A stretch of DNA of 64,000 nt from Thermogutta terrifontis. Its GTDB lineage: Bacteria > Planctomycetota > Planctomycetia > Pirellulales > Thermoguttaceae. Where the stretch lies: positions 1,488,001-1,552,000 of the forward strand of contig NZ_CP018477.1 in assembly GCF_002277955.1 (NCBI RefSeq). Reading direction: 5' to 3'. The position numbers and the translations under genes are program-made. The notes under the pieces were generated by a model. It saw only the letters and a program-made list of their open reading frames with translations, searched no databases and was not told the origin of the DNA. Below are positions 1,204 to 37,196 of the stretch, piece after piece (the stretch's first letter is position 1; the number at the start of each line of letters is the position of its first letter).

Positions 1204-1230
1204 GGTAGGGGCAATCCATGAATGGCCCTT
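1204..1230. repeat. GTAGGGGC-ATTCATGAAT-GCCCCTAC-type palindrome, diverged copy
   Basis: GGTAGGGGCAATCCATGAAT continues with GGCCCTT. It is a diverged member of the palindrome whose perfect form lies at 36833-36862. Confidence 0.65.
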
Positions 1231-1353
1231 AAACACATTGTGCTTGTGGCGTGGCGTTAGATTTTGATAAACGTGGGAATGAGTCAGGGAAACTGCAGTC
1301 CATGAGGCGATCGTGGGGAGCCTTTGGGCCAAAGAATCGAGAGTGCGCCTGGG

Positions 1354-3225: not shown

Positions 3226-3640
3226 GGCGGGATTTCGATGACTGAATGAAACAGAATACAAGATTCTGTCTGACTCTTCCCAATTTTAATAGCGTTTTTG
3301 TCAAATGTGCGACGAGTTCATCCTGAAATACTTCGTCTCCATCGCGGGCATCAGTTACCAATTCTTGTTGGTAATAAATAACAGGCGACGAGCGAGTTGT
3401 TCGCAGCACACAGCGATTACCCGGTGGTCATCAAAGTTAGACAAACACGTCGATGAACACGGCATCGGTCGTCGTGGCTTAGGTTTCGCGGCGTGCTCAA
3501 ATTCCGCTAGATCTTGTTTGCTGATCGACAAGACCAGGGATCGATCATCATCGTCTGCTGGCTGATATAATACGGCAAAGCTGTAGATACTTGAGTTGAA
3601 CCGACTGATGCAAATATGACGAGTTAGGGGAGGTGTCTGT
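3226..3640. other. Divergent intergenic region
   Basis: Separates the PL11 lyase (minus) from the PhoD-like phosphatase (plus). Short frames here have no family resemblance. The only signal seen is an extended -10 element at 3563-3571. Confidence 0.6.
3563..3571 (+). promoter_or_regulatory. Candidate extended -10 promoter (TGnTATAAT)
   Basis: TGATATAAT matches an extended sigma-70 -10 element exactly and lies about 70 bases before the phosphatase ATG at 3641. No good -35 hexamer is seen, which is usual for extended -10 promoters. Confidence 0.4.
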
Positions 3641-5131: not shown

Positions 5132-5143
5132 ATTCGGACGCCC

Positions 5144-5761
5144 ATGTTCAATGAGATTGCCGACTTTCTTTATCGATTCGCCCTCTGTTTTGTCCCCCTG
5201 TTTGCCGCTGTGGACGCGGTGGGGTTGCTCCCCCTGTTTCTGAGTTTGACAGAGGGTTTAACGCCCACCGTCAAACAGCGCGTGCTGTGGCAGATGGTTC
5301 TCACGGCAAGCTCTGTCGTGATTGTGTTTGTCGTGGTAGGACAAGTTGTTCTCCAATTCCTGGGCATTACCATAGCCGATTTCATGGTGGCGGGCGGGAC
5401 CATGCTTTTCATCGTGGCCATGAACGACCTTTTCGCCACAGATAAAGGGCGACCCCATCTGGATGCAGAATCCCTGGGGGCTGTTCCGCTGGGGGTTCCT
5501 CTCACGGTGGGACCGGCTGTACTGACGACCGTACTTCTGCTCGCCAACCAGTATGGGAAGCTACCGGCCCTCTCTGCCGCGCTGGCTAATGTGGTTTTGG
5601 CTGCGGCGCTGTTCTCGGTGGCCGCCAGGATTGAGAGATTTCTCGGTCGGGACGGCGTGCGAACAATGTCAAAAATCGCTTCCCTGCTGATGGCCTCGAT
5701 TGCCGTGATGATGATCCGTAAGGGAATCCTCGGAATTTTGCACGACGCGCACGTTCTTTAG
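5144..5761 (+). CDS. MarC family integral membrane protein
   Basis: 205 residues with six predicted membrane helices. Family signatures include an N-terminal helix with FAAVDAVGLLPLFL and the loop GAVPLGVPLTVGPAVLTTVLLL (about 115-136), which matches the MarC pattern of PLxxPxxxGPGxI in the fourth helix. MarC proteins are transporter-like inner-membrane proteins of unsettled substrate; the name comes from the multiple antibiotic resistance locus, but they do not give resistance themselves. It begins 12 bases after the phosphatase stop. Length is normal for the family (about 200). Confidence 0.88.
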   Translation: MFNEIADFLYRFALCFVPLFAAVDAVGLLPLFLSLTEGLTPTVKQRVLWQMVLTASSVVIVFVVVGQVVLQFLGITIADFMVAGGTMLFIVAMNDLFATDKGRPHLDAESLGAVPLGVPLTVGPAVLTTVLLLANQYGKLPALSAALANVVLAAALFSVAARIERFLGRDGVRTMSKIASLLMASIAVMMIRKGILGILHDAHVL

Positions 5762-5917
5762 AGAAAAATGCACCCCCGATGCATCCAGGCGGGTGTGCAT
5801 TCTGAGCATTTGACGAGCGTGAAAGTGCCGTCTGCTGCTTGCAGGTCCGCCAACTCACGCAGCCGACACATTGCCACTTTTCCTTGGCCGCGGGATTCAA
5901 CCCGGAGTGACCTGACA

Positions 5918-5945
5918 GTAGGGACAATTCACGAATTGCCCCTAC
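5918..5945. repeat. GTAGGGAC-AATTC-GAATT-GCCCCTAC palindrome
   Basis: A 28-base near-palindrome after the MarC-like gene, of the same family as the copies at 1204, 9034, 36774, 36833, 42520, 44383, 55133 and 55195. Confidence 0.75.
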
Positions 5946-6001
5946 AAAGAATTGCGACCATGCCATCTCAGCGGTATTTGCAAAAGCGGGGATAGATCAT
6001 C

Positions 6002-6205
6002 TCACGCAGAGCTTGCCACAGGTTCGGAAACCAGACTGCGAATCCGCTCGATCAACCGCCCGATCATATCCTTCTTTTGCTTGAGGAGTTCTCGTACGTC
6101 GTAGAACCGGGCATGGCGGATTTCGCAGTGGAGATCGGCCTCTTCACGCTCCAGCAATTCAAGAATGAGTTCCCACTCTTCGCGCGACAAGAGTTCTGCA
6201 TTCAT
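6002..6205 (-). CDS. Small hypothetical helical protein
   Basis: 67 residues beginning MNAELLSREEWELILELLER, rich in Glu, Leu, Arg and Lys and predicted to be two or three amphipathic helices. Short proteins with a very similar SREEWELLLELLERE start are common in planctomycetes as far as I recall, but no function is known. It is 92 bases downstream of the symporter gene on the same strand and could share its transcript. No signal peptide or membrane segment. Real-gene status rests on the frame, composition and recurrence of the family. Confidence 0.65.
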   Translation of the reverse strand: MNAELLSREEWELILELLEREEADLHCEIRHARFYDVRELLKQKKDMIGRLIERIRSLVSEPVASSA

Positions 6206-6297
6206 GGCCGCACCTCCGCTCTGAAAGGTTTCTGGTTTCTTCCAGACCCGCAGTTATGGTAGCGCGGGGACAGCCAGCAGACAAGCTGATAGACGCG

Positions 6298-8652
6298 TCA
6301 ACCGGCCGCCTTGCCAGGTGGCAGAAGTGCGGCGGCACGCTGGGTTCGCAGGCTCAGCCGTTGTAACCTTTCGTGTGGGGATGCCACGACGGAAAGATGT
6401 GCTCCCTCCGCCCAAATAGAATCCTGGGTGATGTCGGGTGCCCGCCGCAATTCGACATGGGCACTGACCGGAACCACGACGCGATGTTCGCCCTGGGCGT
6501 CGCGCCATGTGAATTTCCGCTGCCCGCCCTCTTCTTTTTCTTCCACGTGCGTGCCGTGCGGAATTGCGGCCAGGATAGTACTTTTCTCCTCGGGCTGGTC
6601 ACCGTTGGTTTTCTGAACCACCTCAACGAGATAATCCCACACGGGTCGAACAACGACCACCCGCAACGCCGTCTTATCCGGGGCACCGCCCGCGCGCAGG
6701 GTGCTGCCGTAGGTGAAAATACCGTTTTGGTCCGTGATCAGCCTTTCATCGAGATGATCGTCCTCGGCATCGAGGAAGATTTCCAGTCCCACGGCCGGTT
6801 GCCCATCCACTTCAAGCTGACCGCGGATGGGATAATATGCGTGCGGGCTCGTGAATGCCCAGTAGAGTCCGACCATGGTCGCGAATAATAGAGCCGCAAA
6901 AACCCGGTAATCGAGAAGACCTCGCCAGGCATTCTCACCTCGCAGGGCATGCCAGGGTTTTTCCCACACGAGGGCCAGACTTTCCGGCGTGTGCTTGTGA
7001 GGAAGTAAAAGGGACAGAATGACAATGAGAACAGATTCGATGCAGAACAAAATGAACGCCATAAACAAACTGTTGATTTTGAGAATTCCCATCCAGGTGA
7101 GAATGAACACACCAACCCCCAGGAGTGAACCTCCCACCAGGATGATAAAAGCGGCCCAGGCCGACGTCCTTCGCCAAAAAACCCCCCAGAGAAAGACCAC
7201 CGCGGTGGGTGGTGCCACGACCGGGAATACGTCGACCATCGCTTGAAAGATCGTCGTGTCCCGCCGACCAAGGGCCATGGTCCACGCCACGGCAATGCAC
7301 ATGGCGACAAAGGTGGCGATTCGCCCGACCCATACCAAATGCCGGTCCGATACTTCTCCCCGCCAGCGTTTGTAGATGTCGTAGCTGAAAAGCGTGGCAA
7401 TGGAATTGAGAGCACCCGACACCGTGCTCATCAACGCTGCCAGGAGGGCAGCGATGACGATTCCGCGATAGCCGGGGGCCAGCAGGAGATTGATCATGTG
7501 GGTGTATGTTTTTTGCGTATCGGGTGATCCGTCGATGGTGGTTGGCAGCGGGGGTAACTTGCCCGTGTTAACAAGTCCCAGACAAATCACGCCCGGCAGC
7601 ACGAACAAAAACACCGGCAAAATCTTGAGGAAGCCGGCAAATAGAGGCCCGATACGGGCATGGTTTTCATCGCGGGCGCCCAAAACGCGCTGCACGATCG
7701 TCTGGTCCGTGCACCAGTACCATACCCCCAGCACCGGATAGCCCAGGAAGACAGCGTACCATGTGACGCCCGTGGGATCAGCGCTGGAGCGGAGAATGCT
7801 CAGATTGACGGGGTGCACCGCTTCTTTCAGACCGTGCCATCCACCGATCATATTCATACCAATCCAGGTGATGCACGCCGCACCAGTCAAGAGCACTATT
7901 GTCTGAATGGTTTCCGTCCAAACCACAGCCAGCAAACCGCCGACAATGGTGTAAATCGCCGTCGCGCCGCACATTCCCAAGACGGTCCAGAACCGATATT
8001 GTTCGGGATTCCCGTTAACAAAGGCGGGAAGGATCGTTCCTTCGAGCACGATCGCGCCCGTAAGAAGCGAGAAACCAATGTGGACCACGACGGCGGAGAA
8101 TATGGAAAGGATCGCAAGATAATCGCGGCACGCCCGGTTGTAGCGACGTTCCAAAAAATCAGGCAGCGTTGCGACATTGGCCCGTAAGTAAAACGGAGCA
8201 AAGAAAAGGGAAAGAATGATCAAGGTGAAAGCGGCCATCCACTCATAATTGCCGTAAGTCAGGCCGGATGTAAAACCATTTTGAGCAAAACTGACCAGGT
8301 GGATCGTGGAGATATTCGTCGCGAAGAGGGCCATCCCAATCATCGGCCAGGGGAGTGACCTGCTTGCCAGAAAATAATCTGTTCCTCGCACGCCCTGGCG
8401 TCTCAATCCAGCCAGACACCCCAGCAAAATGATGCCAATCAGGTATCCAAAAATGATCGTCAAATCCAACCAGGAAAGGGTAACGCGGCTAAACTGACTG
8501 ATCGTTCCGCCAGGCTCTGCCGCAAGAGCGTGGGGACCGAAAAACACGCTCGTACCGACAGCCAGGAGGGCAGCAGCGGTTTGTGTGCTACGTTGGCCGG
8601 CCTGCGGCATGCACAGGTTCGATAGGAATTGGCGCCAACTCATCCGAATCAT
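6298..8652 (-). CDS. Sodium:solute symporter (SSS/SGLT family) with extra C-terminal domain
   Basis: 784 residues from ATG 8652, chosen over the upstream TTG 8709 because GGAAGAG sits 6 bases before it. A short hydrophobic N-terminal stretch is followed by about 14 membrane helices with SSS features: DYFLASRSLPW, the helix GMALFATNISTIHLVSFAQNG and VVWTETIQTIVLL. The family couples Na+ entry to uptake of sugars, carboxylates or other solutes; closest in style are SGLT-like sugar transporters next to planctomycete hydrolases. Beyond about residue 610 a soluble domain of roughly 170 residues begins YPIRGQLEVDGQPAVGLEIF, resembling a carboxypeptidase-regulatory/Ig-like fold. Substrate not known; carbohydrate is an inference from the neighbourhood. 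Confidence 0.87.
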   Translation of the reverse strand: MIRMSWRQFLSNLCMPQAGQRSTQTAAALLAVGTSVFFGPHALAAEPGGTISQFSRVTLSWLDLTIIFGYLIGIILLGCLAGLRRQGVRGTDYFLASRSLPWPMIGMALFATNISTIHLVSFAQNGFTSGLTYGNYEWMAAFTLIILSLFFAPFYLRANVATLPDFLERRYNRACRDYLAILSIFSAVVVHIGFSLLTGAIVLEGTILPAFVNGNPEQYRFWTVLGMCGATAIYTIVGGLLAVVWTETIQTIVLLTGAACITWIGMNMIGGWHGLKEAVHPVNLSILRSSADPTGVTWYAVFLGYPVLGVWYWCTDQTIVQRVLGARDENHARIGPLFAGFLKILPVFLFVLPGVICLGLVNTGKLPPLPTTIDGSPDTQKTYTHMINLLLAPGYRGIVIAALLAALMSTVSGALNSIATLFSYDIYKRWRGEVSDRHLVWVGRIATFVAMCIAVAWTMALGRRDTTIFQAMVDVFPVVAPPTAVVFLWGVFWRRTSAWAAFIILVGGSLLGVGVFILTWMGILKINSLFMAFILFCIESVLIVILSLLLPHKHTPESLALVWEKPWHALRGENAWRGLLDYRVFAALLFATMVGLYWAFTSPHAYYPIRGQLEVDGQPAVGLEIFLDAEDDHLDERLITDQNGIFTYGSTLRAGGAPDKTALRVVVVRPVWDYLVEVVQKTNGDQPEEKSTILAAIPHGTHVEEKEEGGQRKFTWRDAQGEHRVVVPVSAHVELRRAPDITQDSIWAEGAHLSVVASPHERLQRLSLRTQRAAALLPPGKAAG

Positions 8653-9284
8653 AGTCGTCTCTTCCGTGTTTGAGCGGGTTGGATACAAGTTCCCCGATCG
8701 ATTACACAATTTCCAGAAATAACCAAGACGTGACGGCGACAGCCGCTAATCGTCGATCCCCTGCCGAGATTGAAAGCCACGTCGGCTCACACCGGGTCTC
8801 GGTTCCCCAGTGTCCGCACGGTGTCGTTGTCCTTGGGGCGAGTCACCGATCAAAAACGCCAATTTAGTCACGGGCTGGGCGTGCTGCAAGGTTGACGGCC
8901 TCCGAAGTTCACTCACCGTCAACTGATAACCGCGAGGGGAAAATGAAAAAGGTGAGGATCCTGGCGGCAGTATGGAAAAAATGGCAAGGCATTCGCTGCG
9001 ATCTGCTTCGTGCCCACGATGGCCAATCCCAACGGTACGGGCAATTCATGCACTGCCCCCACCGAAGTCCGACTGGTTCATTGCCCTCGGCAGGGGAAGG
9101 ACTGCCTTTCTGCATATCCGACCCAACTTCGCGCTCAACGCCTACTGCGAGAGTAGTTGAGCCCGAGTCACTGCCCGTTTGCGTTTCAAGAGCAGGGGAA
9201 ACTCGCCGAATACGGGTCAGCACGCTATGATGGACGGCGTTTCAACGTTGCAGTCACTTCGTTTGTGTTGAAAGGAGGTGCTTC
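8653..9284. other. Divergent intergenic region, 632 bases
   Basis: Lies between the symporter (minus) and the TIM-barrel gene (plus) and must hold both promoters. Apart from the palindrome at 9034-9062 I see no conserved element; small frames are not convincing as genes. Confidence 0.6.
9034..9062. repeat. GGTACGGGCAATTCATG-type palindrome, diverged
   Basis: GGTACGGGCAATTCATG followed by CACTGCCCCCACC. A mismatched member of the GTAGGGGC palindrome family. Confidence 0.65.
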
Positions 9285-24246: not shown

Positions 24247-24867
24247 TTAGTCGGACACTTGTGATGGCGGGCTCAGATTGTGACACGCTGATGGATGGAG
24301 GACATCCCGCATCCATTCAACGGTGGCACGCAGACTGGATGTCTGATGATTCTGGAGCTTCTCCACCAAGGAAGAAAGCACCGGTAAAAGGTAGTGAACA
24401 GCAAGATCGTCGCGAAGATGGATGAAAGACAAAAACTCGTTCTGTCGCTGGTTTGCCACCATGTAAGCCGCCCGAAGTGATAAAAAAGCATAGAAATCCG
24501 CTAGCACGGCAAGGTGATCAGGAGGTTCTTCCGTGCTATTCCGATAGCCCATGCGATCGTAGAGCTCCTCGAGCGTGGCAAGCATTTCCCCCGGCGAAAC
24601 GAGCGGTAAATAGCTGACCGCGCGGAGGGAGACCTGGCCACCGGGATAAACGATTCGAAAATACTCCTCCGTCGTCGGATCGCTGCACCAATTTTCAGCG
24701 ATTCTAAATAGAGCGGGATCCTGAATCTCCCGAAGGAGACTCTGAATTTCGCACTTTCTGCTGGCGGACGGCGGCAGAAGGAGGAGGGCGGCCAGGTGCC
24801 ATTGCGCCGCGTCACGAATCAATTCAAAAAACGACTGCTCAGACATTTGTTGCATGTCCATGTTCAT
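24247..24867 (-). CDS. TorD/NarJ-like molybdoenzyme assembly chaperone
   Basis: 206 residues from ATG 24867, which overlaps the stop of the gamma-subunit gene as ATGA, pointing to translational coupling; a longer frame reaches 24897. It is all-helical and cytoplasmic. It has TorD-family features: an N-terminal helix pair, an FRIVYPGGQVSLRAVSYLPL segment (a P-G-G before a strand-like stretch), then DHLAVLADFYAFLSLRAAYM, matching the family's ExPDHLxxELEFMxxL signature. Such chaperones bind the Tat signal and apo-catalytic subunit while the molybdopterin cofactor is loaded, here presumably that of the NarG-like protein. It is the last gene of the operon. Confidence 0.85.
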   Translation of the reverse strand: MNMDMQQMSEQSFFELIRDAAQWHLAALLLLPPSASRKCEIQSLLREIQDPALFRIAENWCSDPTTEEYFRIVYPGGQVSLRAVSYLPLVSPGEMLATLEELYDRMGYRNSTEEPPDHLAVLADFYAFLSLRAAYMVANQRQNEFLSFIHLRDDLAVHYLLPVLSSLVEKLQNHQTSSLRATVEWMRDVLHPSACHNLSPPSQVSD

Positions 24868-25724
24868 TGGTTGGAAACGACTCGCAGAGGAATCCATGCT
24901 GACCGCATCTTTCGTGAACCGATTTCCTGGTGGGCGCCGTCCCAGATGGCGAAAGCCACATGGGTTCCGCTATCGGGAGAGAATCCCTCGGGCGGATCCC
25001 GGACAATCACCACGGCCCAACCCCGGGGAGTGCGGACAGCCTGCGCCTGCGAATTTTTTTGGACAGGGGTGATGGTGCCGGGGCCTTCCGCCACGATATC
25101 CTGAGCGCCTTTTTCAGGAACTGACGCCACATCATTGCCCAACCGTCGTGCAGGGGCGTACCGGAGAGCCATTTCTTCCTGTGCGGTGGATCCGGGAACC
25201 AGTGACGCTGCCTGAAAGGGATAGTGGCCGACCGCCGCATTCGGATACACGGCTTGAATGCCTTTCTCAAAGAGTGGCCCTTTTTTCCAGACCGCTTTCC
25301 AGAGAGTGATTTGCACCGGATGGCCTTTCTCGCCCATCTGCGGAGCTGGCAAGACGGCCTCCACTTTTTGCGGAAGCTGCACGGCGCAGGCGTCGGAGAA
25401 GGCCGCTATGCCGGGATCCGCATTTTCGGTGGCGTCTTCCCATTCCAGACGAAATGCCAGCCGGTGCCCGTCGTACAGCGCGCGGACCGCGACGTAAGGC
25501 GTGGAAGGCTGCAGTAATCGCGGCTCGACAAGATCCTGTAGAAGAAGCGGAATATGCAATTCCTGAGTCTGGCCCCAGATAGAATCGGTGGGATCGGTGG
25601 GCAGTTCCTTCACCATCAGAACCTGGATCTCCTGTGGCGGAGGCGCCACAGCCTGTCGCCGGCATCCCCCTGCCACGATCGCCGCACCGACCAACACGGT
25701 CAAAGGTAGCCGTAATTTCCACAT
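24864..25724 (-). CDS. Lipoprotein, ethylbenzene-dehydrogenase gamma-like (heme b) subunit
   Basis: 286 residues from ATG 25724, with GGAG 9 bases upstream. A lipoprotein signal runs through VGAAIVAGGC, giving a lipidated Cys at 21. The body is beta-rich with the EB_dh pattern: repeated strands, PYVAVRALYDGHRLAFRLEW near 80-100, and ARRLGNDVASVPEKGAQ, RTPRGWAVVIVRDP and GTHVAFAIWDGAHQEIGSRK near the end. In type II DMSO-reductase enzymes this subunit binds a heme b and passes electrons between the Fe-S beta subunit and a cytochrome. Here the acceptor or donor would be the seven-heme cytochrome of the same operon. Heme ligands (Met/Lys in EbdC) were not assigned with certainty. Confidence 0.8.
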   Translation of the reverse strand: MWKLRLPLTVLVGAAIVAGGCRRQAVAPPPQEIQVLMVKELPTDPTDSIWGQTQELHIPLLLQDLVEPRLLQPSTPYVAVRALYDGHRLAFRLEWEDATENADPGIAAFSDACAVQLPQKVEAVLPAPQMGEKGHPVQITLWKAVWKKGPLFEKGIQAVYPNAAVGHYPFQAASLVPGSTAQEEMALRYAPARRLGNDVASVPEKGAQDIVAEGPGTITPVQKNSQAQAVRTPRGWAVVIVRDPPEGFSPDSGTHVAFAIWDGAHQEIGSRKMRSAWIPLRVVSNQ

Positions 25725-25738
25725 GGTTAGATGCTCCG

Positions 25739-26866
25739 TCAGGGACAGTTGTGCCGAGCCACCTGAAAACGTTCGTCGAACAAAGGTCGCTCGAAAACGG
25801 GTTCCCGCAGTGGGACACGGACAATTTCTGCGCCGTCTTCTTCCATTCCGATGATCCAATCGTTTTGCCGCTTCCATCGGGGGACAATTTTCTCTGCACA
25901 GCCAAAGAGTTGGATCAATCCCGCCAGATCAGGATCATCCTTGGCGTTCAGGTATGTTTGGACTGCCGTCTGGACATGGGGACCAAAAAGCTGTTCCAGG
26001 AATCGCACCGGCACATGTACCGGCGGAATGTAGTAAACGTTGGGCTCAAGGCCTAATTGAGGTAAAAGGGGCAGGGCCACCTTGCGCACGTGAACGAGGT
26101 AGTCGATGGGATTGTCCGGGTTCGCAGATTCCGGGACAGAAATGTAGCCCGCCAGGCGGATTTTCCCGATGCAGTTGACAAAACACTGCGGTTGCAACCC
26201 CTGTTCGCGTTTGGGGAAGCAGAAGATACACTTTTCGGAGGTTCCCGTGAGAGGATTGAAAAACACTTTCTTGTACGGGCAGGCTTTCACGCACTCCCGG
26301 TAGCCCCGACAGCGTCCCTGATCCAGCAGCACGATCCCATCTTCCGGACGTTTATAGATGGAGCCTCGTGGGCACGCTGCCAGGCATGCCGGATAGGTAC
26401 AGTGATTGCAGATCCGGGGAAGATAAAAGAACCACACGGCGTGCGGCAGGTTCAAAGCCAACCCGCGCTCTACTTGGCCGGCGCAATCATCTTCCCCTGT
26501 GTTGGGGAATGCGTAATCATAATCATCCGGCCGCCATCCCAGCACGCGTTCTCCAGCGGGAGCAGCTTCAAAGATCGTGCGCCCCAGATATTTTCCGTCC
26601 TTCCATGTTTGTGGGCCGAGCATTTCAAGTAGTTTGCTATCCCATGCGAGGGGATAACTGCCGTACGGTTTGCTTTCCACGTTATTCCACAGCATGTATT
26701 CCTGGCCTTTTCCTGAGGTCCAGGTCGTTTTACAGGCCAGTGTGCAGCTCTGGCAGGCAATGCACTTATTAAGATCGAACACCGCGGCGTACTGTCGCTG
26801 AGGGCGGTGTTCCGGATACCAGTAGGACATGGTGCGTCCCAGTTGCCAGTTGTAAACGATTGCCAT
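25739..26866 (-). CDS. NarH-like Fe-S beta subunit of type II DMSO-reductase family
   Basis: 375 residues with four cysteine clusters: C35-C38-C41-C45; C153-C156-C161-C165; C186-C192-C196; and C213-C216-C228-C232. The third lacks one Cys: [15 protein letters not shown] carries Tyr189 where NarH has Trp (CRGWRxC), so it should bind a 3Fe-4S centre as in NarH while the others bind 4Fe-4S. No signal peptide: it would leave the cell attached to the Tat-exported alpha subunit. It lies 15 bases after the alpha gene. The chain would carry electrons between the Mo centre and the gamma heme. Confidence 0.92.
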
Positions 26867-26881
26867 GGTTCCGCATCCTTC

Positions 26882-29800
26882 TCATGAAGAACGATTAGGG
26901 GTTTCAATCCGCACAAACTCGCCGGCAAGGTAGCGTTGGAGGGCCGGTGACTCATAGGTCGGACGGAGCCCCAGTTGCGCCACACGCCACAACCCCTGGC
27001 CATTCAAGCCGCCCGGTTCCGCCCAGGTGATTTTCACGATGGCTTCTCGCGGAGCACCTGTGGGACAATGCACGTCGGGAGCAAAACCGGTCGAGATAGC
27101 TTGCCCGAAGATCTCCTTACGCACCAGTGAGTCTGTCATCCAGGTCGGCTTGAGCCAGCCTCGGGTAGCCGATTGATGCGACCCGGAGCGGAACATGGCC
27201 TGGTAGTTGGTACGGGGATTTTTGGCGAGGCCATCCGCCCTGGTGCGCTGCCCTTCCTGGGATCCTGGTGTGGCTCCGTACATGTTAAACCACATGCGGG
27301 TTACCCCCCGCGGGGTTCCCGGATAATACCGGGCACGGCAAAGAAGGCGTGCGAATTGATAGTCGCGAGAATTGTGCTGCCAGCCCCGGAAGGGACGATC
27401 TTCGGGGTCCCCGTCTATCCACACATAGTCTCCATCCTCGATTCCCAGTTCTTTGGCATCAGCCGGATTGATGTCCACGTATCCCTCGGCCACGAATGGT
27501 GCCCGCCTGTCATGACGATAAATATCGCCGAACGGGCCAAAGAGGATGGCGATCATGTCAGTATCGATCGGGGTGGTATGGGCGCCATGCCGATATTTGG
27601 GCGTGTGGAAGATGAAGCGATATCCCTTGGCGAGCAGGGGATGCTGATGTTTTTCAGCCACTTCCCAAGGAAGGACGACGTTGCGCCCGCACCGCAAATC
27701 ACAAGACAAGTCTGTGCTTTCGACTCCGTAGTCCTCCGGCCCTGCGGGCCGAATGGCCTCATGTGAAGCCGCCACGATGATGTTCGGCTCGTAGAAGGTG
27801 GAGTCCACCGGCTCGCGGTGGACCGGAAGATTCTCTCCCGCCTCAATGAACTCGGGCTCTTCTCGGTAAAATTCCAAACGTCCGGTTTTCGTGTACCACG
27901 GTCGCGAATCAGTGATCTGTTCATAGCCCACTACCTTGGGCGTGGTACGACTTTGAAGAATGACCGGAATACCCTGGCGGGCTTTCTCTTCTATTTCTGT
28001 AAATCGATATCCCTTTGTATTGGAGCTCGCATCAAGAATTCTTTGGAGATAGACGTCCGTGCGTCCTTCCCGCACGAATTTCCAGTAATCTTCAAAGCGT
28101 GTGTCACCGGTCAATTTTGCCAATTTGGAGGCCACAAGCGCGAAAACCTCAATGTCACCGAGAGTAAGGAAGATTCTCTTGAGCGGAGTCCGCGGAAAGA
28201 CGGACAGGAAGGGATTCGTGACGGAGGCCGTCATGTCGGGATGTTTCAATTCCGCCCAGGAATCCACGCCAAAGACGACATCCGCCCATTCGCAGGAGCC
28301 GGACCACCACCACTCATTGACGCAGATCATCTCGATCTTGGGCAGCACATTCACCACGGTGTTATAGTGCCATTTCACGTTTCCCAGGATCGAGTTGGCG
28401 TTGGCGAACCAGAGGGATTTGGTGGGGGTGGGAATATGCGTTTTCCCGGTCAGCAGACGCTTGCCCACGCGCAGGGGGCGGTCCTCATGATTGTAATAGT
28501 GGGCGGATTCCGGCTTCCAGTATTGGCGAACCACGGCGGGTTTGTCCTGATCCAGTTGTATATTGAAGGGATCCTCACTGATGTACTGCGGAGAACCGTT
28601 AAACAGTGCCACGCGATAGTTTCCGGCGTACGACCCGACGTTGCCGCCAATCCGACCTACATTTCCGGTCAGTGCAGCGACCAGGAATACTGTGCGGTCT
28701 TTGTTGTCATTGTTGAAGAACTGATTGGGGCCCATGCCCAGGGCAAAAAGCGTTGTTCCCGGCTCCGCCGCGATGTGCCGCGCCAGGGTTTCTACCGCTT
28801 CGGCCGGTGCCCACGTGATTTTCTCTACAGTTTTGGGATCAAAATGGAGCAGATATTCGCGGATGAGATCGAAGATCGGCCGGCACGTGACGACCGTTCC
28901 ATCGCGAAGCTTGACCTGCACGGAGCCTTCCAGAAGGGCGTTATTGATGTTGTTGAATTTCCCCACCTGGTCGCGAGTAGTGAGGCGGGGAGCTCCCTTT
29001 TCAGCATCCCACCAGACACTGTCGCCCCACTCCTCTCGGAGTTTTTCGGGAATCAGCATCTCGACCTGCTGTCCCGGGGGCGGGGCTTTTTCGCCGGAGG
29101 CAAGCACCCTGGTCGCATTCGATAATTGGGAAGGGGGATCCCCGAAAACATCACGCGCCCGGAGACGTTGAAGAGTATCCATCCGGACCAGGAGGGGGAG
29201 ATCGGTCCATTGTTTGATATAGTCAGTGTCATAGAGCTTGTTCTTGACGATGACATGGGCGAGTCCCAGAGCGAGTGCCGGTGTCGTGCCGGGGCGAACC
29301 ACAATAACATTGTCGCCCTTGGAAGCCGTCGCTGAATATTCGCAGGCGATCACTACCACCCGCACGCCCTTGAGTCGCGCCTCGGTTAGCCAGTGCGCGT
29401 CAGGCATCTTGGTGGTGATCCAATTCATGCCCCACACGATGAGCGTCTTGCAGTGTTCAACGGCAGAGAGATCAAATTCAACCGTTTGCTGCCCAGTGAC
29501 CATGGGATGACCGGGCGGCAAATCGGTGTGCCAACTGTAGTTGTCGAAACCGCGACCACCGAGGGCCTTTTCCGGTGGCACTTTACGGATGGCCGCATCA
29601 AGCAGCGCAAGAGAGTTAGCAAACCGATACATTCCAAAGACGCGGGTGATGCCCAGCAAGGGCATGCCGCCTCGAAATTTGAGCACCTGGGTTCCCGCCC
29701 CCTGGGTGGCCTCGACGGTGACCGGATCGTAGCCCTGGGCTGTCAGCAGCTTCTGACCCTTTTCGCCGGAATAGGTCTCCGCTATGTTCTGCAGCGCTGC

Positions 29801-30340
29801 CGCCACAATGGTGGCCGCCTCCTCGTGCGACATACGGATCCAGTTGTCACGGCCGCGCTGAAAATATTCCGCCGGGGGACGTCCATCTTCCCCGCGTGGA
29901 AATCCAGCCTCGTACCAGCGCTTGAATCCCTCCCGCACCATGCATTGAGTGATTCGGCGATCACCATAAAAGCGTCGGGGCAGCGCCAATCCCTTCTGGC
30001 AGATCCGCGGATCCCAGCGATGAGTTGTCCGGCGGCCGTCGAGATCTTCGGCTTCGCCGTATCGCATGGTCGGACCAATTCGCACAATTACCCCGGACCG
30101 AACAAACGCCCGGAGGAGACAATTATGCGTATCATTCGGCGCGCAGGTAAAAGTAAATGATTCGTCAAACCGCCAGAGATCGCGATAAGCATCCTCCCAT
30201 TTTCTGTTCGGATAATTCGCCAGCGGATTATCCAGTGCTTCCAGTTGCCACGCCCGGCTGATGGAGTGGGCAAAAGCGGCAAATCCGGCTCCAGAAAGAA
30301 TAGAAAGGAAATCACGACGCGATAATTCTCGACTATTCAT
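26882..30340 (-). CDS. NarG-like Tat-exported molybdopterin oxidoreductase alpha subunit
   Basis: 1152 residues from ATG 30340, which overlaps the cytochrome stop as ATGA. A twin-arginine signal ([18 protein letters not shown], residues 7-24) sends it out of the cytoplasm. The NarG-type Mo ligand Asp is D273 in HTDLPPGHP, matching the NarG CDLPPASP segment, so it is a type II DMSO-reductase-family enzyme. The N-terminal Fe-S motif is C66-x3-D70-x3-C74 with C114 following: Asp stands where NarG has Cys. Later segments such as [24 protein letters not shown] align with NarG. It probably reduces nitrate or another oxyanion on the outer face, as in archaeal-type nitrate reductases; nitrite oxidation or another substrate cannot be excluded. 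Confidence 0.9.
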
Positions 30341-32001
30341 TTCGCGGTCTCCCATGTGCGAATATAGGCGACAATCGCTTCGATCTCCTGATCAGGAAGT
30401 ACAGGGTGGTTGAGGGACGGCAAAGCAAAACCTTCCATATTTGTGCCGCGTCTGCCTCGGCGGATCGTTTCTACGAGAAAGTCGTCACTTGCCGTCTTCA
30501 GTAGATTGGGATGATTGAGTGCTGGGGCCTCCGGGCCGCTCCCGTCCTTGCCGTGACAGCCGGCACACCACCGTTCGAAAAGTGCCTGTCCGCGGGTGGG
30601 GTCTGCCAAAACCCAGCGCCGCTCCGAATGCAGGGGCTGGGGCGGGGCAACGCCACTTCGTCTTCGCAAGTATTCCACAACAGAATTGATTTCCTCGGGA
30701 TGCAGTCCAACCTCGGCATCGGAGAAGGCCGGCATCCGCCGTCCCGGGCGTCCCTCTCGAATCGTGGCCAGTAAAAAGGCGTTGTCGGCTACAGCGAGGA
30801 AGTCGGGATTGCCCAAGGCTGGCGCGGGCGGCTGGCCGGGAAATCGCCGTCCTTCTCCCTGAGGACCGTGACAACTCGAACAAAACGCGGCAAAGAGCGT
30901 TTCGCCATCGGTTGCAAATTCCCGGCGCTGCATGCGTTCAACAAGTGTCCGGTCGATAGGCTCCGCCCGCTTGTTGGAAGGATCTCTTCGCAGAGAGAGC
31001 AAATAGTACGTCAGCGATTCCACCTGCTCGTCGGAAAGGAAGAATTTCGGCATTTTCGAACCCGGCACGATCCTGGCAGGATCCCGCGTATGGGCGGAGA
31101 GCCAACTGGCGAGCGTGTGGGGGCCTGGAACGTTGGTAAAGTCCAGCCGGGCGGGATCTCGAAGGCCGATCGAGGTCAGATCGGGGCCCTCGGTCCCTCC
31201 GACGCCGGAAACTTTGTGACACCCCCGACAGCCCAGCGAATGAAAGAGCGCCTGACCCGCCACCACGCTCGGCGTTCCCACGCGGGTTTGCAAATATTCT
31301 TCAAGGAGCTGGCGTTCGTCGGGCGACAGGTCGGGAATGCAATCGCGCCAAACCGGGTCCTTGTTCTCCCGTGCCCGTTGCCGATGGACTTCGTACCAGT
31401 CCGAGGCGAACCCTCGTCGTCCAACGACAGACAAGTCGGGGCCCTCCATGCCGCCGATACCCGCCGGCCGGATTGTTCCGCCGCGTCCGTCCAGACGGTG
31501 ACAGCTCAAACAATCAGAACGTTCCAGAACTGCCTGACCCTGAGCCAGACGTTCCAGTGTCGGGACGCCCACTTGCGTATGACAGGTTCCGCAGCCAGCT
31601 TCGACAAATCGGAGTGGGATCATGGGTTCCGGCCAGAATGGCACGTCGCCATGGGCGTCAGCACTCTCCGTGGCTCGTCCCTGTCCACCGTGGCAGACGG
31701 TGCATCCAAACTCTCCAAGATCGTGGGGAACGGGTGGATGGGGACGCGCCAGCCGATGCAGACCCGTCAGACGTTCGGCGGGATCCATCCCTACGTGACA
31801 GGTGGTACAGCGGTCGATGGTAGCGGTGGTGGTTCCCACGATCTGCCGAATCCCGGTTGAAAAAGGTCCATCCGAGGCCGCCACTTCCGCCTGAAGGCGT
31901 CGCCACTGGCGCAGCACATTTTCCTCCAGGGCAGCTGCCAGTAGGACCACCACGACCCCCAGACTGGACCACAACAGCAGGTGTTTATTCTTTGTCTCCA
32001 T
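30337..32001 (-). CDS. Membrane-anchored seven-heme cytochrome c
   Basis: 554 residues. An N-terminal helix (8-27) anchors it; the rest faces the periplasm. Seven CxxCH heme sites are seen in order: CTTCH (65-69), CTVCH, CGTCH, CLSCH, CRGCH, CSSCH and CAGCH. The last three lie in mono-heme cytochrome c domains of the c-oxidase III type (GxxLFxxxCxxCH ... [18 protein letters not shown]). It sits between cytochrome b and the molybdoenzyme gene and overlaps the latter by 4 bases. It would be the electron bridge from the Rieske/cytochrome b complex to the gamma heme subunit, replacing cytochrome c1. The gene starts 6 bases after cytochrome b. Confidence 0.92.
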
Positions 32002-32007
32002 AGGCGA

Positions 32008-33555
32008 TCAATGCTTCGGCCAGTCCGCCGGGGACCAGTAAAATCCCCAGTTTGGTCCACGAAAATGAACACCAATGATCGTCAGCACGACAAATCCACA
32101 GAGAAAGCAAGTGAAAAGTGCCACCGCACCGGCTCGGGCAGAACGATAGCGATGGACTATTCCCAGCGAGAATATGGCATAAACAACGACCAACAGCGTG
32201 CCCGGATTGACGAACGTGATAATCAATTGGGGAATATCCGGGAACCACTGCCGCAGCCAGCCAAACTGAATGGCGAAGGCTTCAATAGCGATGACAGAAA
32301 GCAATCCGAAGACCGCGGACACGAGAACGAGACGCTGGCCGCCTGGGCCACCGAACCATCTTCCCGTTCCCTCGGTTTCGCGGTCCAGGAATGGAATCAG
32401 TCCCAGACCGATGATGACGATCAGGGGAATTCCAGCACCTCCCATGAATGCGGAATGAGATACGAGCTCCTGTACCCCCAGAAAATACCAGGGGGCCTTT
32501 GCCGGATTCTCCGGGACCGCCGGGTTGGCGATTTCTTTGAGCGGAGCGTTCCAGAAGATGGCAGCCAGGACGGTAAGGAAAACCGTCAACATGAAGACGG
32601 CACATTCGGCATAGAACAGATGAGGCATGGAAGGAATTGTATTCTCCGGCCCTCTGTTCACTGCGGGTGAGCGACCTCGAACGATCGCGGCCAGGTGATA
32701 CGTTTTGGTGGGAACGTCCGTGAAAACCGGGTAAAGGTCGCGGGGAGGTCCCAGCAGCGCATCGGCATCTTCAGGCCGTGCCAGCCCTCCGTCTTTGCGA
32801 ATTCGCCAGAAATGAACGCCCATCAAAATGACCAACGCCAGCGGGAGAACAGCCACGTGCAGCACGTAAAAACGGATCAGCGATTCATCTCCCACCTCGG
32901 GCCCGCCCAGCAGGAGCGTTTTCATCCAGCCGCCTGGATCGAAGTAGGGCGTGATCCCGAGGGCATCTGTCAGTTCCCGCGGCGACTGAGCGATATTCGC
33001 ACCGATGGTGATCGCCCAATAGGCCAGTTGATCCCAGGGCAGCAAGTAACCTGTGAAAGATAGTCCGAGTGTCAGCACAAGAAGTCCCAGTCCCACCAGC
33101 CAGTTGAACTCCCGCGGGTAACGATAAGCACCGGTGTAAAAGACGCGTGCCATGTGGAGGAATACGGTGACCACCATTAGGTTGGCTGCCCAGCGGTGGA
33201 TATTGCGAATAAATCGTCCCGTAGGGACGACATAGTGAATATCTTTAATCGATTGATAGGCGACATCCGGATAGGGCTTGTAATAAAGCATCAATAACAC
33301 GCCCGTGATGAGCGTCAGCAGAAACGCCGCAGTCACGGCCACTCCAAGTCCCCAGGTTGTGCGCCACCGGAGACTCCAGCGGTGCACACGAACAGGATGA
33401 ATATGAAGAAACAGATTGTTGAAAACGAATTCTGAACGCGCCCGATCGGTCACAGGCGGTCCGGAACGGAAGGCGGATTCCTTGAACCGCCGGGGCGCTT
33501 CCCGCAAATGGGACCACAATTCCTTGAGGGGGGCTTGTCTGGGCTCCATACGCAT
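32008..33555 (-). CDS. Cytochrome b of a bc-type quinol oxidising complex
   Basis: 515 residues from ATG 33555, which shares its A with the Rieske stop (TGATG). Full-length cytochrome b: N-terminal four-helix part with heme ligands H120 and H134 on one helix and H233 and H248 on another; the 14-residue gap in the second pair is of the b6 type. The C-terminal part carries APWYFLGVQEL, corresponding to the PEWY quinol-site motif with Glu replaced, as in several bacterial complexes. About eight or more helices. With the Rieske protein and multiheme cytochrome it forms a quinol:cytochrome c oxidoreductase feeding the Nar-type enzyme and moving protons. Confidence 0.93.
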   Translation of the reverse strand: MRMEPRQAPLKELWSHLREAPRRFKESAFRSGPPVTDRARSEFVFNNLFLHIHPVRVHRWSLRWRTTWGLGVAVTAAFLLTLITGVLLMLYYKPYPDVAYQSIKDIHYVVPTGRFIRNIHRWAANLMVVTVFLHMARVFYTGAYRYPREFNWLVGLGLLVLTLGLSFTGYLLPWDQLAYWAITIGANIAQSPRELTDALGITPYFDPGGWMKTLLLGGPEVGDESLIRFYVLHVAVLPLALVILMGVHFWRIRKDGGLARPEDADALLGPPRDLYPVFTDVPTKTYHLAAIVRGRSPAVNRGPENTIPSMPHLFYAECAVFMLTVFLTVLAAIFWNAPLKEIANPAVPENPAKAPWYFLGVQELVSHSAFMGGAGIPLIVIIGLGLIPFLDRETEGTGRWFGGPGGQRLVLVSAVFGLLSVIAIEAFAIQFGWLRQWFPDIPQLIITFVNPGTLLVVVYAIFSLGIVHRYRSARAGAVALFTCFLCGFVVLTIIGVHFRGPNWGFYWSPADWPKH

Positions 33556-34040
33556 CAACCTCGTGCCTTAGTCCCGGGTTGAACGGTCACATTGCCATCC
33601 ACCCACACTTCGTTACCCTCAAGCGAAACTGCCAGCCAGGGAAGAGGCTTGGGAGCAGGCCCTCCGATCACATGCCCGTCGGGCGCAAAGCGCGAGCCGT
33701 GACAGGGACACTCGAAACCATTCGGGCTGGGTTTCACGATGCATCCCAGATGGGTGCATACCAGCGAGATGGCATACACACCTTCGGAATCGCGGAACAA
33801 AACAACATTGCGACCGGGAGGCACGAAGGGCTCACCTGGCTGGAGTGACTCGGGTAACTGCACGCGAAATTTGCGCGATGGGGACGCCGATACGACAACC
33901 CGGGGCAATCGGATGATACCCAAAAATGCCAGAAACAGCGCGGTGACAAAGGCTCCCAGGGCCGACAAACCAAGAAAATCCCTGCGTGGTACCGGCTCAG
34001 GAGCAAGCCGCGCGAGCACCGTCGTGTGATCGTCTTTCAT
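33555..34040 (-). CDS. Rieske 2Fe-2S protein
   Basis: 161 residues from ATG 34040, overlapping the preceding stop as ATGA. A Tat-type signal anchor (RRDFLGLSALGAFVTALFLAF, residues 19-39) is followed by the Rieske fold. Cluster-binding motifs are CTHLGC (C95, H97) and CPCHGS (C111, H114), with C100 and C113 able to form the usual disulphide; GGPAPKPLP is the proline loop. It oxidises quinol at the cytochrome b Qo site and passes one electron to the heme protein. The next gene, cytochrome b, starts on its stop codon. Confidence 0.94.
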   Translation of the reverse strand: MKDDHTTVLARLAPEPVPRRDFLGLSALGAFVTALFLAFLGIIRLPRVVVSASPSRKFRVQLPESLQPGEPFVPPGRNVVLFRDSEGVYAISLVCTHLGCIVKPSPNGFECPCHGSRFAPDGHVIGGPAPKPLPWLAVSLEGNEVWVDGNVTVQPGTKARG

Positions 34041-35953
34041 AGCGTCTTCCACTCCACGTGATGACAGACCCTTTCCATCGTGATCGCGTCAGCCGGACAC
34101 CGGGCCGCGCACAGCCCGCAACGGATGCAGCGGTCCTCATCTTTGAGGATCGCGCTTTGCTGGGTCCAATCGATTCCTTCACCGAGCAGTGCCGCCACAA
34201 GTTTTTCCAGTTCTTCGTTGCGCTCCATGGCCTGAAGAGGGACCAGTTTGAGACACCGGGTGGGACATACGTCCGCACAACCACCGCAGAGGATGCAGCG
34301 TGATCCGTCGAAAACCGGGGAAACGGCACAATCCAGACAGCGTGATGCTTCCCGCCTGGCGAGAGTGGCGTCGTATCCTGTTTCCACCAGCACGTCCCAC
34401 CCCTTCAGCCTTTCTGTAACCGGAGTGGTGGGGATCGGCTGTCGTCGCACTCCCTCGTAGCCGCGTTCTCGCCGATAGCGTTTCTCCTCCAAGAACACGG
34501 TTGTCGCTTCGGGGACCAGGCGACGGCCGGTCAGATACTCGTACACCGACCGGGCAGCACGTTTCCCCGAGGCAACTGCATCAATGAGAAGTTTTGTCCC
34601 ATGCGCAAGGTCGCCCGCCACAAAAACCCCCGGTGCGGTTGTGGCGAGGGTCTCCGGATCCACAACCGGCCAGCCTGGGCGATGCTGCTTGATGTCTTCC
34701 CCACCTTCTGCAAGAAAGTCGAGGCTGGTCGTCTGGCCCACCGCAAGAAGAACTGTATCGCACGGGATGCGTATCCGATCGTTATCGTCAAAAAGAGGTG
34801 CAAAGCGACGGTTTTCATCGTAAACTCGCAAACATCGCCGAAAGACGACCGCGGTGACTTCGCCGTTGGCGCCGCGCTCGATCTCAAAAGGACCCCATCC
34901 CCCCAAACGTTCGATCCCTTCCTCGTCGCCCTCCAGGATTTCCTGCGTATCCGCCGGCATTTCTTCGAGAGTTTCCAGCGACACCAGCTTGACTCCGGTG
35001 CCGGGTTCCATCCGTGCGGCTGTTCGTGCGGTATCCCAGGCAACCTGTCTCAGGACAGTTCTCGCCACATCGTAAGCCACATTGCCACCCCCAATGACCA
35101 CGACGTGGCGACCGATCTGAAAGGGTTCTCCCAGTGCCACCGCGCGCAACAGATCAACGCCGCCATACACGCCAGGACCGTTTTCGCCGGGGATTCCCAA
35201 TCGTCGGGCGCGCTTGGCTCCCACGGCCAGGATAACAGCCGCGTACTCGCGCCGCAGGTGAGCGAAGGAAACATGCTCCCCGACGCTCTGCCCGCATCGC
35301 AGCTCTGCACCCAGGGCTTCAATCACCGAAATTTCCCAGCGGATGAGTTCCCGCGGCAAACGATAGGCGGGCACTCCCAGTGCCAGCATGCCCCCCGGAA
35401 TGCGTTCGGCTTCGAAGATGACCGGCCGAAAACCCATCAACGCCAGATCGTGAGCGGCAGCCAGTCCGGCAGGGCCGCCGCCGACGATGGCCACGGGTTG
35501 ACCGGCGGCCTTCTCGACCCGGCCCGCCGCCTCCGCTTTGATCCACGCGGCCAGTTCCTCGGCATCCATCGCAATCGGTGGGGCTGCCTGACGAAGATTC
35601 TTCCAGTAATCCACTGGATCTCGCTTTTCCCAACCGCCCGACTCACAGGCAAATCGTTTGAGCGCACGAATTGCAAGGGGGCGGTCCTCGGCCACAAAAT
35701 GACCATCGGCGTCTACTCGCGGAACACGTCCGCGTCGACAGGCCGCCTCGCACGGCGCCCCGCAGATCCGCCCGCAAATCGAAGCGAGCGGATTCGGACC
35801 TCGAGCGATGAGATATGCCTCTTCATAACGTCCCTCGGCAATGGCGCGGACATATCCCCGGGCATCGGTATGGACCGGGCAGGCCACCTGACACGCGATG
35901 AGTTGCCGGTGGTAGTCGGTACCCGGTACGGAAACGGCGAGTGTTGGCTGCAA
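34037..35953 (-). CDS. GltD/NfnB-like FAD-dependent Fe-S oxidoreductase
   Basis: 638 residues if it starts at TTG 35953. AGGAGGTG lies 7 bases before that TTG and overlaps the Rrf2 stop; the open frame reaches 36241, but only by running through the Rrf2 gene. An N-terminal GltD-type cysteine set (C21, C25, C60, C64, C68, C72) is followed by an FAD site VAIVGGGPAGLAAAH, an NAD(P) site HVVVIGGGNVAYDVAR and FVAGDLAHG. Two C-terminal ferredoxin clusters are CILCGGCADVCP and CIRCGLCAARCP. It probably moves electrons between NAD(P)H and a ferredoxin-like or membrane partner; its place first in the respiratory operon suggests an input or redox-sensing role. Not a true glutamate synthase: no large subunit is near. 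Confidence 0.87.
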   Translation of the reverse strand: MQPTLAVSVPGTDYHRQLIACQVACPVHTDARGYVRAIAEGRYEEAYLIARGPNPLASICGRICGAPCEAACRRGRVPRVDADGHFVAEDRPLAIRALKRFACESGGWEKRDPVDYWKNLRQAAPPIAMDAEELAAWIKAEAAGRVEKAAGQPVAIVGGGPAGLAAAHDLALMGFRPVIFEAERIPGGMLALGVPAYRLPRELIRWEISVIEALGAELRCGQSVGEHVSFAHLRREYAAVILAVGAKRARRLGIPGENGPGVYGGVDLLRAVALGEPFQIGRHVVVIGGGNVAYDVARTVLRQVAWDTARTAARMEPGTGVKLVSLETLEEMPADTQEILEGDEEGIERLGGWGPFEIERGANGEVTAVVFRRCLRVYDENRRFAPLFDDNDRIRIPCDTVLLAVGQTTSLDFLAEGGEDIKQHRPGWPVVDPETLATTAPGVFVAGDLAHGTKLLIDAVASGKRAARSVYEYLTGRRLVPEATTVFLEEKRYRRERGYEGVRRQPIPTTPVTERLKGWDVLVETGYDATLARREASRCLDCAVSPVFDGSRCILCGGCADVCPTRCLKLVPLQAMERNEELEKLVAALLGEGIDWTQQSAILKDEDRCIRCGLCAARCPADAITMERVCHHVEWKTL

Positions 35954-35955
35954 GG

Positions 35956-36510
35956 CTACACCTCCTGTCCCCGCGCTTCTCCAGCCTTCGTCATCCGACC
36001 GGGACGAGATCGCGAAGGCGTCGACGGCCACTCTTTCTTTTCCGGTGGCACGAGCTCCACTATCTCGATGCCAGGCCATAACCAGCATTTCTCCCTCTCG
36101 GGGAGCGACGGGTCGGGGCAGGGCCGTTTGATCATGTCGGCCAGCGTCCACCGCGAAAGAACGCCCACAATGGCCCGGTGAAGTTCGGCGGCCGCTTGAT
36201 GAAACGCGCATGTACGCGAGAGGTCGTCGGTTTCCCGGCAAAAGTCGCCAAGAATCACGCCCTGACAGGCCTCAACGATGCTGAGAAGCGAGATCTGTTC
36301 TGGCGAACGATTCAAGGAAACTCCCCCGGCCACTCCTCGTTGGGCCTTGAGTATCCCCGCTTTGACCAACTGGCGGAGCACCTTCGCCAAATAGGTGGGA
36401 GACTCTCCGAACGCCTGGGCGATCACCCGCGGAGAGACTGGTTGGTGATCTGGGTGGAGTCCCAGAAACACCAGTGCTTTCAAGCCGGAGATGGTGGTTT
36501 TTGTCAACAT
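35956..36510 (-). CDS. Rrf2 family transcriptional regulator, probable Fe-S sensor
   Basis: 184 residues from ATG 36510. The frame opens at TTG 36549, but the predicted transcript start lies downstream of that codon, so ATG 36510 is preferred. The winged helix is typical of Rrf2: SGLKALVFLGLHP, VSPRVIAQAFGESPTYLAKVLRQLVKAGILKAQRG, GGVSLNRSPEQISLL. Three cysteines, C82, C91 and C101 (ACQG, DFCRE, RTCAFH), occupy the region where IscR/NsrR/RsrR bind an Fe-S cluster. It is the first gene of the operon and probably controls it in response to NO, redox or Fe-S status. The C-terminal tail (about 145-184) is a longer, Arg/Pro/Glu-rich extension. Confidence 0.9.
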   Translation of the reverse strand: MLTKTTISGLKALVFLGLHPDHQPVSPRVIAQAFGESPTYLAKVLRQLVKAGILKAQRGVAGGVSLNRSPEQISLLSIVEACQGVILGDFCRETDDLSRTCAFHQAAAELHRAIVGVLSRWTLADMIKRPCPDPSLPEREKCWLWPGIEIVELVPPEKKEWPSTPSRSRPGRMTKAGEARGQEV

Positions 36511-36521
36511 ACCCAAATCCC

Positions 36522-36574
36522 GGATAAATCGGATAAGCGATATCCACAATATCCGTAATTCGCTCCCCTGTCAA
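36522..36574 (-). promoter_or_regulatory. Promoter and symmetric four-half-site operator of the respiratory operon
   Basis: On the minus strand a perfect -35 TTGACA (36569-36574) is followed by a 17-base spacer and -10 TATTGT (36546-36551), 4 of 6 matches. On the plus strand the half-sites GGATA (36522-36526), GGATA (36531-36535), TATCC (36541-36545) and TATCC (36550-36554) form a nested inverted repeat: GGATA-n4-GGATA-n5-TATCC-n4-TATCC. Its centre, 36538, lies within a base or two of the expected transcription start. A protein dimer pair bound here would cover the -10 and block RNA polymerase; Rrf2 from the first gene is the obvious candidate. Confidence 0.65.
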
Positions 36575-36649: not shown

Positions 36650-36862
36650 GGAGGGGCACGCTTGTCGTGCCCGCCAGGACGAAGACGAAATCGATAATCC
36701 AGCTTGGGAGAAACGGACCTGACAAGCAGGTCCCTCCAAAAGGCGGACCTGACAAGCAGGTCCCTCCATATGCGGTAGGGGCGATTCATGAATCGCCCCC
36801 AAAGCGCATCCACCAGGGCTAAACAACGTGTCGGTAGGGGCCATTCATGAATGGCCCCTACC
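36650..36862. repeat. Cluster of palindromic repeats including a perfect 30-base palindrome
   Basis: Units: GGAGGGGCACGCTTGTCGTG + CCCG (36650-36673); two tandem copies of GGACCTGACAAGCAGGTCCC + TCC at 36715-36737 and 36745-36767; GGTAGGGGCGATTCA/TGAATCGCCCCC (36774-36800); and a perfect palindrome of half GGTAGGGGCCATTCA (36833-36862). The cluster fills most of the gap between the operon promoter and the GH28 gene (36575-37196), which otherwise shows no gene. Confidence 0.85.
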
Positions 36863-37196
36863 GATGGTTCGCTTTTCAACCGTCCTGCACCTCCTGCGGG
36901 GAATGCCTTTTCCAGAGCCTTCCTGAGTCCAGTGACTTACGCTAGATGGCAACAACGCAAAGGGCGGGCTCGGCAGGGGTTCAGGGGAGATGCTGTGCAT
37001 CTGGGCGCGCTTTGTTCAGGAACGGTGAGCACCCGGATGAGGTGAGGGCGGAGGAATTCGCCTTCCGCCCAGGTGCGAACCGCTCTTGGCCCGCATAGAA
37101 TGGGGGGGCAATCCTGAAACACGTCCTCGATGATGAAAGCTCTGCATTTGTCCCCGGCAGCGTTTTCGCCTGAAACGCTTCACAAGGAGCCAGTCC

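Follow-up and report, generated by a model that had tools for sequence, protein, structure and literature searches.

RsrR of Streptomyces venezuelae is an Rrf2-family regulator with non-standard cluster ligands. The consulted excerpts of PMC5015018 describe its site as an 11-3-11 inverted repeat and place its class 1 targets in NAD(P)H and glutamate metabolism. For Escherichia coli IscR, the excerpts of PMC5411485 give a C-x5-C-x5-C cysteine spacing and name C104 and H107 among the ligands. RisR of Myxococcus xanthus, which controls isc and suf, is described in the corresponding passages of PMC9973013 as recognizing the core T(t/g)GAC-N7-GTCC(t/a) between AT-rich flanks, and its action as a repressor has been demonstrated. 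NsrR operators follow gATGyAT-N5-ATrCATc, with ytfE/dnrN and some denitrification genes as targets (excerpts of PMC1274295). In Thermus thermophilus, a cluster for nitrogen-oxide respiration is under a local Rrf2 regulator, NsrR, which has a small RIC-like partner; mutants without the nsrRST cluster lose transcription from two targets (excerpts of PMC5748679). Within Thermogutta, genes arranged in the order found here have been called NarGHI plus cytochrome b/c1, the Nar enzyme has been labelled cytoplasmic and anaerobic growth with nitrate has been described, while the term 'rrf2' is absent from the main text of that paper (PMC5673643).

The locus studied here lies in a 64,000-nucleotide stretch of the Thermogutta terrifontis genome, hereafter the window, and joins a nested palindrome to an Rrf2 gene heading a respiratory operon. 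We consider the palindrome to be the autoregulatory site of the adjacent Rrf2 repressor, a putative binding site controlling the operon from rrf2 to the Mo enzyme, with a probability of about 0.8; this reading draws on the conservation of the layout in two phyla and on the site accompanying the regulator into different operons. The pattern GGATA-n4-GGATA-n5-TATCC-n4-TATCC, which the sequence-only reading had described as symmetric about position 36538, is present exactly in that form, as 33 bases without mismatch at 36522-36554 (GGATA-AATC-GGATA-AGCGA-TATCC-ACAA-TATCC, not assigned to a strand). At up to three mismatches it is unique in the window (none in 100 shuffles) and in the whole genome (4,810,751 bases in one contig; control 0). 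The inner inverted repeat, GGATA-n5-TATCC at 36531-36545, forms a core with Rrf2-type spacing. It is flanked by outer half-sites on the downstream side (36522-36526, TATCC on the minus strand) and on the upstream side (36550-36554), the final two bases of the latter being the first two of the -10 hexamer.

The first gene of the operon (35956-36510, minus strand), reading from an ATG at 36510, encodes a protein of 184 amino acids. Its assignment to Rrf2, made earlier from sequence, was borne out by matches to Pfam PF02082 (94.3 bits, cut-off 30) and TIGR00738 (89.6 bits, cut-off 73.3), which place it in the Rrf2 superfamily. An AlphaFold2 model (pLDDT 82.9) predicts a winged-helix fold with a long dimer helix and matches the Rrf2 chains CymR, RsrR, IscR and NsrR with Z scores of 11.1-16.3; the nearest solved sequences are 4cic (T. 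potens IscR), a Listeria protein, NsrR and RsrR. The regulator scores below the NCBIfam equivalog cut-offs for NsrR (53.8 bits against 182), IscR (40.6 against 207.55), RirA (51 against 193) and CymR (43.5 against 195). The description as a three-cysteine protein did not survive: there are five cysteines (C82, C91, C101, C131, C142), four of them conserved, together with an invariant H104. Among 28 orthologs, C82 and C142 are each found in 26, C91 in 27, and C101 and H104 in all 28, giving a Cys-x8-Cys-x9-Cys-x2-His spacing that differs from the usual C-x5-C-x5-C. Hand alignment to the IscR ligand set C92, C98, C104 and H107 yielded equivalents of C92, C104 and H107 (C91, C101 and H104; in 27, 28 and 28 of 28) and none of C98, which makes an Fe-S cluster uncertain. 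In our reading the protein represents a new Rrf2 subgroup with a probable Fe-S cluster. At the recognition-helix positions of IscR S40, E43 and Q44 it has T, A and K, the same residues as T41, A44 and K45 of ScNsrR as quoted in the literature.

The remaining genes follow on the minus strand, beginning with a GltD-like FAD/4Fe-4S oxidoreductase (34037-35953) with a probable TTG start right after the rrf2 stop. Profile matches then identify a Rieske [2Fe-2S] protein (33555-34052), cytochrome b (32008-33558), a multihaem cytochrome c (30337-32001), an Fe-S beta subunit (25739-26866) and an ethylbenzene-dehydrogenase-type haem gamma subunit (24864-25733, start approximate), while a type II DMSO reductase chaperone-like protein (24247-24897) stays below its cut-off (24.1 bits against 152.3). 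The Mo subunit (26882-30355) belongs to the type II DMSO-reductase family; the Mo enzyme falls below the equivalog cut-offs of both NarG (134.2 against 1084.15 bits) and NarH (187.8 against 524.05). The twin-arginine leader of the alpha subunit (SRRDFL) argues for export and against the published cytoplasmic label, and the genes stand in the order published for T. terrifontis (PMC5673643). At 22 of the 28 orthologous loci the FAD gene follows the regulator gene. When 26 stretches, some shortened or ended by contig limits, were searched for the whole operon, the Rieske, cytochrome b, cytochrome c and Mo genes came after the FAD gene wherever the stretch reached, with one exception. This locus, L087, is one of two Rrf2 loci in its genome (G894) and its best FAD match is partial; neither a Rieske gene nor any of the later ones is seen in the stretch fetched there, and the locus may be a degenerate copy in which the operator has been retained.

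The FAD gene is missing at L007, L008, L037, L038, L039 and L075. The regulator is directly followed by a Mo enzyme gene at L007 (best match DMSO_red_II_alp, below cut-off), and no operon was seen at L008. The distant relatives L037, L038 and L039 (stretches L081, L082 and L083) have enzymes passing both the NarG and the NarH cut-offs. NarI was tested in L082 and also passes; NarK matches in L081 and L082 and a NarJ match in L082 are below cut-off. RIC/YtfE, a gene for the repair of NO damage, passes its cut-off in L083, within the operon, and in L082, where it is divergent from the Rrf2 gene (1137-1811, minus strand) and the operator sits between the two genes, a possible two-way target. At the L075 locus (L095), NapA passes its cut-off and the preceding gene matches RIC below cut-off (23.9 bits). 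The operon there (2513-9217), a further type behind the same operator, comprises this RIC-like, hemerythrin-like gene, NapA, cytochromes, and DsrO-like and DsrP-like subunits; the usual operon is present at two other loci of that genome (G823).

Conservation of the operator layout was assessed by scoring 20 pattern letters over 200 bases upstream and 20 bases of each gene, with 500 dinucleotide shuffles per ortholog. The orthologs came from 101 genomes of the family (the seven best rows, at least 165.8 bits), 392 genomes of the phylum (four rows including the window's own), genome contigs, and 399 genomes of the class of the acidobacterial record L034 (16 genes in 13 genomes). One row with 32% identity (L036) was dropped, and L032, L034 and L060 were removed as repeats of L003, L061 and L037. 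The set consists of 28 different loci, 11 from planctomycetes and 17 from acidobacteria; a further 81 and 16 genomes, searched separately, contributed no new locus. A Thermogutta MAG carries the window's regulator at 98% identity. Orthologs thus occur in a few percent of the searched genomes at the cut-offs used, and the family is patchy. The operator layout is found upstream of 26 of the 28 genes, each with a shuffle p below 0.03, the two without a significant site being L007 (p 0.23) and L008 (p 0.50). Paralogous Rrf2 genes from genomes of the window's family served as a control (rows below 55 bits with loci, L009-L031; of these 23, 17 could be scored and six had no tblastn match), with start codons extrapolated from the match, and the layout preceded 0 of 17 (300 shuffles each). 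The conservation check that had been set for the motif was thereby passed, and the contrast between orthologs and paralogs, with the operons that carry NarG, NarH and NapA, supports the earlier proposal of a new Rrf2-type site that would control Nar-bc respiration.

Genome-wide searches give a similar distribution. TAN4GGATAN5TATCCN4TA without mismatch has four sites in 13 genomes, every one just upstream of an Rrf2 gene, and no site in nine of the 13; when two mismatches were allowed, sites in several of the genomes were no more numerous than in the control. With AAN3GGATAN5TATCCN3TT at up to one mismatch, 19 genomes contain 20 sites, 16 of them at an Rrf2 gene, and the reversed control has none. 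The four away from the studied Rrf2 genes are L112 (G748:C7) and L114 (G491:C657), both within long open frames, and one each in G840:C102 and G823:C102. In the window's own genome, three further sites appear at two mismatches (control 2): 1290918 lies in a frame of 1065 codons, 54279 in two frames just over 100 codons, and 840338 in no open frame of at least 100 codons. Since few sites lie away from Rrf2 genes and those checked are mostly in open frames, we read the regulator as mainly local in action. Elsewhere in the window, a 25-nt repeat holding GGACCTGACAAGCAGGTCC is present in two copies 30 bases apart at 36714-36768, and this 19-mer matches the genome 121 times forward and 110 times in reverse at up to one mismatch (control 0). 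Copies of a near-palindrome, GTAGGGGCnATTCATGAATnGCCCC, at 36773-36866 resemble REP elements; genome-wide there are 197 forward and 186 reverse matches at up to one mismatch (control 0), counts that overlap because the pattern is nearly palindromic.

A minus-strand promoter had been predicted, and its elements were found in the proposed place: TTGACA (36574-36569), a 17-base spacer and TATTGT (36551-36546), the latter within the operator. Such a hexamer pair is weak evidence by itself (one found, 0.3 expected). The hexamers would set the transcription start at 36536-36540, and a start at the operator centre is a prediction that fits only the common planctomycete register. That register is seen in 7 of 11 planctomycete loci: a TTGACA-like hexamer (five of six letters or better) begins 36-37 bases ahead of the centre, the -10 shares bases with the outer unit, and transcription is predicted to start near the centre. 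In the common acidobacterial register, seen in 12 of 17 loci, the hexamer begins 25-26 bases ahead of the centre, and the spacer decides whether the -10 coincides with the inner left unit or with the centre. The -35 is thus about 11 bases, or one helical turn, closer to the operator than in planctomycetes. The remaining nine loci do not follow this division, mostly having weak -35 matches; they include L072, with TTGACA at 44, and the acidobacterial L070, with TGGACA at 36. The operator centre precedes the start codon by 11-57 bases across loci and by 28 bases in the window. In both common registers the operator overlaps the -10 or the start, and either position would be expected to block polymerase.

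From this arrangement a mechanism can be proposed. An Rrf2 dimer would read the inner GGATA-n5-TATCC, with further contacts to the A/T pairs at ±11-12 and to the outer unit, TRTC, at ±12-15. Bound over the -10 and the predicted start, it would keep RNA polymerase from the rrf2-FAD-Rieske-cytochrome b-cytochrome c-Mo enzyme transcript, and a change in its probable Fe-S cluster may release it and switch on nitrate respiration. Judging from the gene neighbours, there is about an even chance that the signal is NO, or nitrite through NO derived from it; O2 or redox state is a somewhat weaker candidate, and some other signal is improbable.

How much of the palindrome is recognized can be judged from 26 aligned sites (all but L003 and L008), placed with the full pattern, which favours outer letters. 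Information is symmetric, with ±3 to ±7 carrying most of it and none at ±16; G-6, A-5, T+5 and C+6 are present in 26/26 sites. Outside the core, A-12 (26/26) and T+12 (25/26), with A-11 and T+11, are the strongest positions, G-15 and C+15 occur in 20/26 and 18/26, and signals beyond ±16 are weak (0.46 bits or less; T at +21 in 17/26). As conservation runs from ±12 to ±15 and is absent at ±16, the outer unit is best written GAYA/TRTC, and the window's fifth outer letter seems fortuitous. The nine-base repeat of half-sites claimed from the window is exact there and weaker in relatives, which have inner GGAYA/TRTCC and outer GAYA/TRTC. Anchoring on the core only, in 25 representatives below 80% identity (without L003, L005 and L074), placed an exact TRTC at +12 on the right in 8/25 and an exact GAYA at -15 on the left in 12/25. 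On the right, exact TRTC was found in 0 of 25 at offsets 4-11 and 13-17, and both sides together gave one case at the remaining offsets 4-17. At offsets 18-20 there were three right and seven left matches, the left ones being the GACA of the -35. This concentration of exact units at the expected offset indicates that the repeat is real though weaker than the core; counting against it, the core-only anchor landed elsewhere than the full pattern at L037, L038 and L039. Single positions covary only weakly across the dyad (p 0.04 at ±2 and ±5, 0.06 at ±7, 1.0 at ±4), which speaks against the operator reading.

One interpretation of these outer units is that they are true recognition-helix half-sites of a four-protomer operator, read by a second dimer, in an alternative register nine bases away or by a dimer of dimers, which would allow cooperative or two-state repression. 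The only block that the inner one resembles lies nine bases further out (3.29 of 5; at most 1.56 at other offsets from 4 to 15), the letters at inner position 4 and outer position 13 coincide in 35/52 halves (shuffled mean 27.7, p 0.004), and the outer left unit lies outside any -10 in the common acidobacterial register. Against this stand the unconserved outermost base at ±16, the fact that one of six inner-outer pairs is below 0.05 in a test inflated by relatedness, and geometry, by which a nine-base offset would put two heavily overlapping dimers on nearly the same face; we hold the interpretation only tentatively. It is possible, if doubtful, that the inner palindrome alone is the operator, the outer units being the -10 hexamer together with A/T flanking sequence whose minor groove the wing would contact. 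The prominence of A-12/T+12 and A-11/T+11, the overlap of the outer left unit with the -10 in the window and the AT-rich flanks in the RisR passages (PMC9973013) would fit, whereas G-15 and C+15 are conserved on both sides (letters that the placement pattern includes) and the core-anchored TRTC at +12 falls where no promoter element is predicted. On a more speculative view, the regulators form a new subgroup with their own Cys-x8-Cys-x9-Cys-x2-His cluster site and a nested operator of phased GATA half-sites, four in number, which more than one dimer would recognize or which would be read in two registers nine bases apart, and the promoter may have slid one helical turn between the phyla with one GATA unit staying within or beside the -10 region.

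An inverted repeat near a start codon might also act as an RNA hairpin, that is an attenuator or a ribosome-access switch. A start near the centre would leave half of the palindrome in the transcript, and in the acidobacterial register the start would probably be still further downstream. The -4/+4 pairs in 26 sites are T-A 16, T-G 7, C-A 3 and C-G 0, with no compensating pair. We rejected the hairpin as extremely improbable for its lack of compensating pairs and the half palindrome in the transcript. Nitrate reductase operons are often controlled by Fnr or Dnr, and the palindrome could be the site of a Crp/Fnr, Fur or similar regulator that stands beside the Rrf2 gene by chance. It tracks the Rrf2 gene across three operon types and two phyla, however, and only four of the 20 sites in 19 genomes are elsewhere, two of these, on inspection, within long open frames; such a regulator is very unlikely. 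The autoregulatory Rrf2 operator remains our preferred reading, and would provide a concrete regulator-operator pair, by putative binding, for nitrate respiration in Planctomycetes and Acidobacteria. No earlier description of the motif or of such a pair was found in the open-access literature searched. The loci also constitute a natural experiment, with one operator in two common promoter registers about one helical turn apart and an altered set of cluster ligands.

The sequence-only reading had set the motif apart from IscR and NsrR sites. This holds for the letters, which differ from those of the IscR type 1 site as well, but not for the geometry, which is ordinary for Rrf2 operators and has the spacing of RisR and NsrR. 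The N5 centre is common to the NsrR operator, whose half-site letters differ, and the RIC/YtfE genes near L082 and L083 recall the NsrR targets (excerpts of PMC1274295). RisR, as described in the passages of PMC9973013, shares TC at +5,+6 and C at +7 and likewise has its site on the promoter hexamers. GA at -6,-5 and TC at +5,+6 are present in 26/26 of our sites at RisR's spacing, whereas the RisR letters GAC-N7-GTC are not matched throughout: C at -4 occurs in 3/26 and G at +4 in 7/26, with A in 19/26. Those passages do not mention an outer nine-base repeat such as is present here. The Thermus NsrR system is alike in its local regulator, respiratory cluster and small RIC-like partner, and unlike in its site, CTTGACCNNGGTCATGG, and in the three cysteines that it shares with NsrR homologs (excerpts of PMC5748679). 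The predicted fold is close to that of RsrR (Z 15.6, 4.0 A over 141 residues), from which the locus differs in site and targets as given in the excerpts of PMC5015018. With respect to IscR, C101-x2-H104 corresponds to C104 and H107, as far as the excerpts of PMC5411485 describe these, and conserved C82 and C142 are additional. Compared with these systems, the locus is set apart, as deduced from the sequences, by its outer repeat, its ligand set and its target.
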